Shown here: one piece after another, positions 26,559 to 28,246 of the stretch
Numbering within the stretch: the first letter of the stretch is position 1
Layout: each line of letters opens with the position of its first letter
IMG/VR virus record: IMGVR_UViG_3300045922_001162
Location: 1-37,528 of that record
Source: a virus
Direction: 5' to 3' (one strand)
Length of the DNA: 37,528 nucleotides
Position numbers and translations under genes: made by a program
Notes under the pieces: model-generated
The model's input: only the letters and a program-made list of their open reading frames with translations
The model's database searches: none
Told to the model about the DNA's origin: nothing

Positions 26559-26905
26559 GAGATTTCCACCAGGACGGCGTATTCGCCGGGTCTTCCGTTG
26601 CGCTGTGCATAGAGCCACCTCAACCGCGCATCGCCGTCGTCCATGCCCAGGGCGTCCGCCACGCCGTCGCGGACGTGCTTGAGCGCGGCGGCGAGGTTGT
26701 CCGAATCGAGCCGGCGCGGCCCGATGCGCGTCAGCCGCACGATGATCTTCCGCCCACCCGTGCCCGGCGGCAGCGGGGCGAGGGCCGCCCGGACGAGAAG
26801 CCGGGCGGCCTCGCGTGCCTCGCGCGCCCTGCGGGCGCGCCGCGCCCAGTGGCCGCGAAGGTTCGGCTCGGACCACGTGCGGATGGGAAGCAGCACCTCC
26901 GTCAT
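26555..26905 (-). CDS. RusA-like Holliday junction resolvase
   Basis: A 116-residue protein with the RusA pattern: an early WSEPNLRGHWARRARRARE basic region, a strand (GRKIIVRLTRIGPRR) and the acidic catalytic block LDSDNLAAALKHVRDG and ALGMDDGD, in which aspartates coordinate metal in the family. RusA cleaves four-way junctions and serves phage recombination and packaging. ATG at 26905 has GGAGG; a GTG at 26917 with AGGAG is an equal alternative. It is translationally coupled to the helicase. Confidence 0.85.
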   Translation of the reverse strand: MTEVLLPIRTWSEPNLRGHWARRARRAREAREAARLLVRAALAPLPPGTGGRKIIVRLTRIGPRRLDSDNLAAALKHVRDGVADALGMDDGDARLRWLYAQRNGRPGEYAVLVEIS

Positions 26906-26928
26906 CCGCGCCTCCACGGAAAATCTCC

Positions 26929-26988
26929 TCGCATTGGTTCGCTTTGCGCTGCCCTGCCACGCATTGCGCCGCCGCGACGCGCCTTGCC
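26929..26988 (-). repeat. Pentanucleotide array 1 (NGCRN x12)
   Basis: On the minus strand the bases divide exactly into 12 pentamers beginning GGCAA GGCGC GTCGC GGCGG. All 12 have C at position 3, all 12 have a purine at position 4, and 10 have GC at positions 2-3. No gene is seen in the gap. Confidence 0.75.
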
Positions 26989-27011
26989 CCGCCAGCCCGC
27001 GCTGTGCTGGG

Positions 27012-27581
27012 TTATTCTTCCTTCCATGCGGTCACCACGAACTTTCCGAACGGGCCCTTGCACGCGGGCCGGAAATCGCCCAATCCGATGCGCTTGCCTG
27101 CGGCGTCGACGATGTCGCGCACCAGCACGGCGCTGATCATCTCGGTGTCGATGTTGACCGTGAAAGAGAGCCGCCAGTCGTGGAAGCACGGCCGGTGGCA
27201 GAGAATCCGCCCTCCCGTCGACGGAATGCGGACGGCGCGCGTGTCCACCGTCCACGGTTCCTTGTGCTCGATGGGAATCTCCAATCCTTCGATCTCCACG
27301 CATGCGGGGATCATCGAGGACTTCTGCGTGGTGATCTTGGACTTGCCCGCCTTGAAGAACTGCCCCGCGTCGATGAAGCAGCGGAACAGGTTGGGCTGGG
27401 GGATCATCGGTTTGCCGTCGTGCCCGATATAGAGCCGTGCCTCCGCCTGCTCTCGAGGAGTTCCCTTTTCGCCGACGGACACCAGCCGGTTGCCGTTCGT
27501 GGCTGCCATCTGCGCGGCGTCCGTGAAACGATTGCAGAGAAGCGGTGTCACGCCTTCAATGGTCATGTTGATGCGTTTCAT
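27012..27581 (-). CDS. Conserved-looking protein of the recombination module, unknown function
   Basis: A 189-residue protein. It begins MKRINMTIEGVTPLLCNRFT, has a motif GTPREQAEARLY and PQPNLFRCFIDAGQFF, and ends with a glycine-rich stretch RIGLGDFRPACKGPFGKF. The beta-rich start and the GxGxF/GPFG ending recall RAMP or Cas7-like folds only loosely; I do not claim that. ATG at 27581 has a perfect AAGGAGGT. It is flanked on both sides by pentanucleotide arrays, and lies among Sak4-, DUF669- and RusA-like genes, so a role in phage recombination or single-strand DNA handling is likely from context. Confidence 0.75.
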   Translation of the reverse strand: MKRINMTIEGVTPLLCNRFTDAAQMAATNGNRLVSVGEKGTPREQAEARLYIGHDGKPMIPQPNLFRCFIDAGQFFKAGKSKITTQKSSMIPACVEIEGLEIPIEHKEPWTVDTRAVRIPSTGGRILCHRPCFHDWRLSFTVNIDTEMISAVLVRDIVDAAGKRIGLGDFRPACKGPFGKFVVTAWKEE

Positions 27582-27605
27582 GCAGCGACCTCCTTTTGGA
27601 TGACC

Positions 27606-27660
27606 GTGCCCTGGATTGCCTTGCCGCGCGTAGCCCCGCGTTGCCATGCATCGCCTTGCC
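27606..27660 (-). repeat. Pentanucleotide array 2 (NGCRN x11)
   Basis: On the minus strand the bases divide into 11 pentamers: GGCAA GGCGA TGCAT GGCAA, CGCGG GGCTA CGCGC, GGCAA GGCAA TCCAG GGCAC. C is at position 3 in all 11 and GC at positions 2-3 in 10. Confidence 0.75.
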
Positions 27661-27706
27661 CGGCATCACCAAGCGATGCCCGGCGGCGCGACGCGAAGCA
27701 GTGAAC

Positions 27707-28162
27707 TCATCCTCTGCGCCACGGCGGCGTTGGGTTCTGATTCTGTGCGGGCTTCGCGCCGTTGGTCGTCTCCCGCTTCGCGTAGGAGCGGATTTCGTTC
27801 CTGATCTCGCCGTCGGCGTCGGTCTTCTGCCTGACGCTGATGACCAGCGGCAGGTTGTGCAGCTCGCAGGAGTCCTTCGGCTCCATGACGCCGACCGCGC
27901 GGCAGATGGCCGACAGTTCCGAACGGGCGATCTTCACCGTCAGCGGGTTTGGGTTGTCGAGGTTGAGCCGCGCCCAGAGCAGGCGGTTCTTGAACTCGCC
28001 CTCGATGACCTGGAAGGTGAGTTCCAGGTACGAGCCGTTGCCGCTGCGGGTCGGCTTCATCTCCGAGGCCGTGACGACGGCGACGTACTTGCCCGCCGGC
28101 AGCGGCTCGAAGTCGGCGGACGGTTCCACGGTCCTCGCGTCAAAACCTTGTAGATTTGCCAT
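27707..28162 (-). CDS. DUF669-type protein, likely ssDNA-binding
   Basis: A 151-residue protein with the DUF669 pattern: FEPLPAGKYVAVVTASEMKP, TRSGNGSYLELTFQVIEGEF and KNRLLWARLNLDNPNPLTVK, followed by an IARSELSAICRAVGV helix. DUF669 proteins commonly lie beside phage recombinases and are thought to act as OB-type single-strand DNA-binding proteins. ATG at 28162 follows AAGGAG; longer forms run into the array upstream. It lies directly between the Sak4-like gene and the unknown recombination-module gene. Confidence 0.8.
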   Translation of the reverse strand: MANLQGFDARTVEPSADFEPLPAGKYVAVVTASEMKPTRSGNGSYLELTFQVIEGEFKNRLLWARLNLDNPNPLTVKIARSELSAICRAVGVMEPKDSCELHNLPLVISVRQKTDADGEIRNEIRSYAKRETTNGAKPAQNQNPTPPWRRG

Positions 28163-28182
28163 GACTAGTTCTCCTTCGGGAC

Positions 28183-28232
28183 TTGCCTTGCCACGCCGCG
28201 CCTTGCCAAGCCCCGGATTGCAAGGCATTGGC
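28183..28232 (-). repeat. Pentanucleotide array 3 (NGCRN x10)
   Basis: On the minus strand the bases divide into 10 pentamers, ending GGCTT GGCAA GGCGC and GGCGT GGCAA GGCAA. C is at position 3 in all 10. The array lies between the Sak4-like and DUF669 genes. Confidence 0.7.
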
Positions 28233-28246
28233 GCTCCATGTTTCGA

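Follow-up and report, generated by a model that had tools for sequence, protein, structure and literature searches.

A probable VIPR system with candidate guides against the DUF669 gene of related phages in the recombination module of an uncultivated phage

A VIPR-like locus between the recombination genes

The recombination module of the phage analyzed here most probably carries a VIPR (Viral Interference Programmable Repeat) system, a reading to which we give a probability of about 0.9. By analogy with the systems of SUSP1 and P. fulva, two of its pentamer arrays, vrRNA1 and vrRNA2, would direct the small protein Vipr to the DUF669 gene of rival phages, repressing or blocking it. The window is the whole 37,528-nucleotide stretch of the IMG/VR record IMGVR_UViG_3300045922_001162. 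In the main text of the 2026 preprint that describes it, VIPR is a phage-borne, RNA-guided DNA-recognition system and a relative of CRISPR, in which Vipr is a phage-encoded ancestral RAMP protein of about 20 kDa and the vrRNA consists of 9-16 GGY/NN pentamers, whose NN pairs read the DNA with one skipped base between them (PMC13142463). The corresponding features of the window are the following.

28183..28242, minus strand: candidate vrRNA1 array, 12 pentamers between Sak4 and DUF669; NN pairs AT GC AA CT AA GG TT AA GC (GT AA AA)
27707..28162, minus strand: the phage's own DUF669 gene, ssDNA-binding family (Pfam PF05037, PHROG ssDNA-binding families)
28136..28162, minus strand: own DUF669 codons 1-9, MANLQGFDA; 2/18 paired positions differ from vrRNA1
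27776..27802, minus strand: own DUF669 site RNEIRSYAK; 5/18 paired positions differ from vrRNA2
27606..27665, minus strand: candidate vrRNA2 array between DUF669 and vipr, with weak GC phasing onward to 27699; NN pairs CG AA GA AT AA GG TA GC AA, then tail-like units
27012..27581, minus strand: predicted vipr gene, encoding the 189-residue RAMP-like protein P0002 (phrog_4652); C-terminal glycine-rich motif GLGDFRPACKGPFGKF
26929..27008, minus strand: candidate vrRNA3 array, 12-16 pentamers between vipr and the RusA-like gene; its end, ACCAA TGCGA GGAGATTTT, resembles the 3' ends of related loci
26902..26919, minus strand: leftover of a DUF669 3' end, CCGTGGAGGCGCGGATGA (PWRRG*), 18 bases, upstream of and overlapping the RusA start

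The vrRNA2 guide and the DUF669 stop are separated by a hairpin-like stretch (GCCGGGCATCGCTTGGTGATGCCGGGC; window positions 27640-27705), which could be a processing or leader structure.

Form and statistics of the pentamer arrays

Read on the minus strand, the stretches 28183-28232, 27606-27660 and 26929-26988 divide into exactly 10, 11 and 12 pentamers, as the initial annotation had counted. Every one of the 33 units has C as its third base, and 28 have G as the second. The annotation's statement that nearly all units match NGCRN was somewhat overstated (25/33 do), while GGCAA is indeed the commonest unit. When the window is pooled with 24 related loci, the unit becomes G65 G93 C94 N N, that is, GGY/NN, with GGY as the constant part and positions 4 and 5 nearly free (entropy 1.85 and 1.94 bits). 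The purine proposed for position 4 falls outside this motif, and GCRNN was accordingly dropped as a search motif. The arrays are also longer than originally delimited, since by guide pairing vrRNA1 reaches 28242 and vrRNA2 reaches 27665, and the third array runs to about 27008 by GC phasing.

The periodicity is strong in comparison with the rest of the contig. The three gaps have a lag-5 identity of 0.41, 0.43 and 0.52, compared with an average of 0.26 for 60-base windows across the contig, and the top 25 windows of the whole contig by this measure all lie inside the three array gaps. Phased GC exceeds that of Markov shuffles in each gap (p about 0.004, 0.0002 and 0.0002), and the arrays withstood the comparison with shuffled sequence, which fails to reproduce the signal. 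All of them receive weak Tandem Repeats Finder scores. Each array immediately precedes the ribosome-binding site of a gene on the minus strand, namely DUF669, the phrog_4652 gene and the RusA-like gene, and longest-ORF gene calling near the arrays is misleading because they are stop-free.

The Vipr protein

The gene between the second and third arrays had been taken for an unknown recombination gene, and the partner protein in it went unrecognised. Its family, phrog_4652, is common to SUSP1 Vipr and P0002, and the family profile, searched against the PDB, recovers SUSP1 Vipr (36pp) over its full length with an E-value of 6.3e-12. The AF2 model of P0002 (pLDDT 84) has Csm3 and Cas7 as its nearest folds (Z about 11); the Foldseek library comprised entries released up to 2026-04-08, and the solved Vipr 36pp was reached by sequence only. 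Judged by family profile and predicted fold, the gene at 27012-27581 is that of a Vipr protein. Searches of NCBIfam, PADLOC and Rfam returned nothing for the Vipr protein or the array RNA. Close Viprs are found in contigs binned as Magnetococcales, Desulfocapsa, Desulfovibrionaceae, Victivallaceae and Planctomycetota. Weak relatives (25-30% identity), annotated as hypothetical, occur in many isolated phages of Mycobacterium, Gordonia and Escherichia.

Linkage of arrays and gene in related phages

The arrays do occur in related phages. A search with DUF669 yielded 32 viral loci, three of which (L002, L003 and L018) hold further arrays of the same form in their module gaps. The closest relative, L001 (89% identical), has neither the vipr gene nor the arrays, and its Sak4, DUF669 and RusA genes follow one another almost without gaps; in the window, by comparison, DUF669 and RusA are separated by an insertion made up of the phrog_4652 gene and two arrays. 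The leftover PWRRG* adjoins this inserted cassette at the RusA start and is identical to the DUF669 end of L001 and L005, in which DUF669 overlaps RusA. The genes near the window vipr are recombination genes that are present in VIPR-free relatives as well.

In all 24 viral contigs with a close relative of the window vipr, arrays adjoin the gene, as they also do in the genome contigs L191-L207. According to a pattern scan, viral contigs with 38-71% GC often contain such arrays, which come in several flavours; in L083, L035, L043 and L087, which were read by eye, they adjoin a gene ending in the motif G.G.FRP...G.F, and the window phrog_4652 gene ends likewise. Relatives have common 3' ends such as GGCAAGGCAAGGATTTT; the three array ends of the window agree only partly.

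Several of these loci differ in layout. Long tandem series of vrRNAs (16 and 12, respectively) precede a vipr gene in L202:347-2235 and L173:2138-2939; in both, short constant spacers, such as GATTTTAGTG in L173, set them apart in a CRISPR-like layout. The unit reads GCANN in L035 (a contig of 38% GC) and L079, and GCGNN in L066, L080 and L087. Repeated hairpin-like stretches, tail-like in appearance, lie between the arrays of L035 and L043. In L087:4705-5460, the arrays read GCGNN on the strand opposite the adjacent vipr-like gene, which suggests either a divergent layout or another frame of the motif.

Predicted targets of the guides

Read with a one-base skip, vrRNA2 matches the DUF669 codons RNEIKGYAK of related phages at 18/18 positions. 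The exact pattern occurs in nine viral contigs of the entire collection, eight of them at this very site in the DUF669 gene of related contigs, and none of 300 permuted guides does as well. The pairs of vrRNA1 correspond to the first nine DUF669 codons (MANLNGFNA) in L001 and many others: the exact pattern has 116 matches in viral contigs, 111 of which are DUF669 starts, in phase (110 identified by tblastn, and one, L288, clipped by the contig end). The first two units of this guide, AACAT and GGAGC, depart from GGY and were included after the match had been seen, because their pairs continue it; without these two extension units, one of 300 permutations does as well. When the vrRNA1 pattern was shifted by two pairs, it gave only two matches, both unrelated. 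For vrRNA3, no credible target was found in the viral contigs, nor in 34 related records at up to three mismatches; its shifted pattern gave two exact matches, both in unrelated sequence.

The phage's own DUF669 gene differs at both guide sites. At codon positions 1 and 2, these sites hold 7/36 changes, against 22/266 elsewhere in DUF669, a weak enrichment (one-sided p 0.04). The DUF669 alleles of VIPR-positive and VIPR-negative phages differ at the vrRNA1 site (p 7e-6), a comparison that we discount, the negatives having mostly been retrieved by a search for the site itself.

The same code holds across the family. Of 119 guides from loci with the Vipr subfamily of the window, 25 fit a non-self target at a one-base skip with no more than one of the 18 bases mismatched, against 3.0 for shuffled guides, and the excess exists only at this skip, since skips of 0, 2 and 3 give 1, 2 and 3 matches. 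The targets are DUF669 (8), Sak4 (6), exonuclease (4), helicase (3), vipr (1) and sites elsewhere (3), a tally that is biased because the sequence set was gathered around recombination-module genes. In all 22 targets within annotated genes, the skipped base is the codon wobble position, sense or antisense. The best matches of the 25 guides in their own loci have 2-7 mismatches, most of them 4-6, against 0-1 in non-self targets. The one-base-skip rule, the wobble phase and this self/non-self contrast are not explained by the sampling bias. A vrRNA at L168:2870-2974 matches the vipr gene (INITINGTT region) of two other loci with one mismatch in 18, a case that may represent VIPR directed against VIPR.

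Alternative explanations

Because the operon next to the arrays contains homologs of the target genes, the arrays could be vrRNAs that autoregulate the phage's own recombination operon (DUF669, Sak4 or helicase) instead of acting on rivals. We regard this as improbable, since 0/25 guides fit their own locus with fewer than two mismatches while fitting the loci of others with 0-1, and the window's own DUF669 shows five and two mismatches to its guides. It is less probable still that the tracts work without guides, as a cis-acting RNA or DNA array bound by Vipr or another protein in a TRAP-like translational control. TRAP binds triplets with a period of five, and the tracts abut ribosome-binding sites; against this stands that the NN pairs spell out genes of other phages much more often than shuffled guides do, and solely at the one-base skip. 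The "RNA element" and the "protein-binding array" among the possibilities of the initial annotation were of the right kind, the arrays probably being guide-RNA tracts and the adjoining gene encoding the predicted partner protein.

The recombination hot spot and the relics of repeat slippage, also raised there, are unsupported: the units separate cleanly into conserved and variable positions, and the dinucleotides at the variable ones, taken in order, reproduce stretches of genes from other phages. Perfect pentamer microsatellites do appear among the pattern matches (e.g., L049 and L108), but decay would not leave two positions more than 90% conserved beside two nearly random ones, and target matches are about eightfold above shuffles. 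Functionless slippage relics or a decayed microsatellite are therefore scarcely credible as an origin of the arrays.

Proposed mechanism and significance

In the VIPR reading that we prefer, the three gaps would be transcribed into vrRNAs, and copies of the RAMP protein Vipr would hold their GGY triplets in a ribonucleoprotein, as described for SUSP1 and P. fulva. The two free bases of each unit would pair with DNA, one target base being skipped between pairs. In competing phages with the same recombination module, vrRNA1 would guide the complex to the start of the ssDNA-binding gene DUF669 and vrRNA2 to its 3' part, where the complex may bind and silence the gene, again by analogy with these two systems. 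The most likely consequence is that related phages in the same infected cell would lose the expression of a DNA-recombination gene to silencing. The phage itself carries, or came with, an altered copy of DUF669, probably spared at least in part because it is changed at both guide sites.

We propose tentatively, and at less than even odds, that the VIPR cassette of this clade is an allele-exclusion device, which would be carried along with a recombination-gene allele that resists the guides and would silence the sensitive allele in co-infecting relatives. The idea fits the leftover DUF669 end, the apparently resistant own copy and the family-wide targeting of genes from the neighbouring module. 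If so, guides and resistant gene, being linked, would be favoured in module exchange, like a toxin with its antidote.

The description of VIPR dates from 2026, and its known natural targets are few. The window and its relatives supply guides whose natural targets can be predicted sharply, and with them an inherent test of self against non-self, in which recombination genes of close relatives stand against the altered copies of the phage itself. They also reproduce independently, on uncultivated phages, the one-base-skip code and the wobble rule, and point to a pattern absent from the main text of the preprint, in which phages would shut down competing alleles of the DNA-recombination module that they carry themselves.

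Comparison with VIPR and CRISPR-Cas systems

Judged by a repeat-spacer array together with cas genes, the locus is not a CRISPR-Cas system: no cas family was detected among the nine genes around the arrays (Pfam, PHROGs), and an Rfam search of the 7 kb around them gave no CRISPR repeat family. The Vipr model resembles the RAMP proteins of class 1 systems (Csm3, Cas7) in its fold and in its glycine-rich loop. It differs from these systems in being one small protein with 10-13% sequence identity, accompanied by a degenerate pentamer tract instead of repeats and spacers, with a predicted pairing of two bases in three.

The locus is closer to the VIPR systems of SUSP1 and P. fulva type II, both tested in the preprint (PMC13142463). 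Like them, it is phage-borne and combines a small RAMP protein from the same family with GGY/NN tracts of about 9-16 units that flank vipr on either side; further shared features are one-base-skip, wobble-skipping targets in competing phages and a guide against another vipr gene (here in L168). The arrays in SUSP1's own gaps, read for comparison, look like those of the window. The preprint, which distinguishes seven VIPR types, also lists an invariable 3' tail after the repeat tract and a vap accessory gene among the features of VIPR (PMC13142463). In contrast to SUSP1, no conserved structured 3' tail is evident in the window, and in contrast to both tested systems, no vap gene is evident near the window vipr, going by annotation, and the vrRNAs are single and located in the gaps of a recombination operon. 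Finally, whereas the targets given in the main text of the preprint are satellites and lysogeny regulators (PMC13142463), the predicted targets here are the DUF669, Sak4, exonuclease and helicase genes of close relatives.
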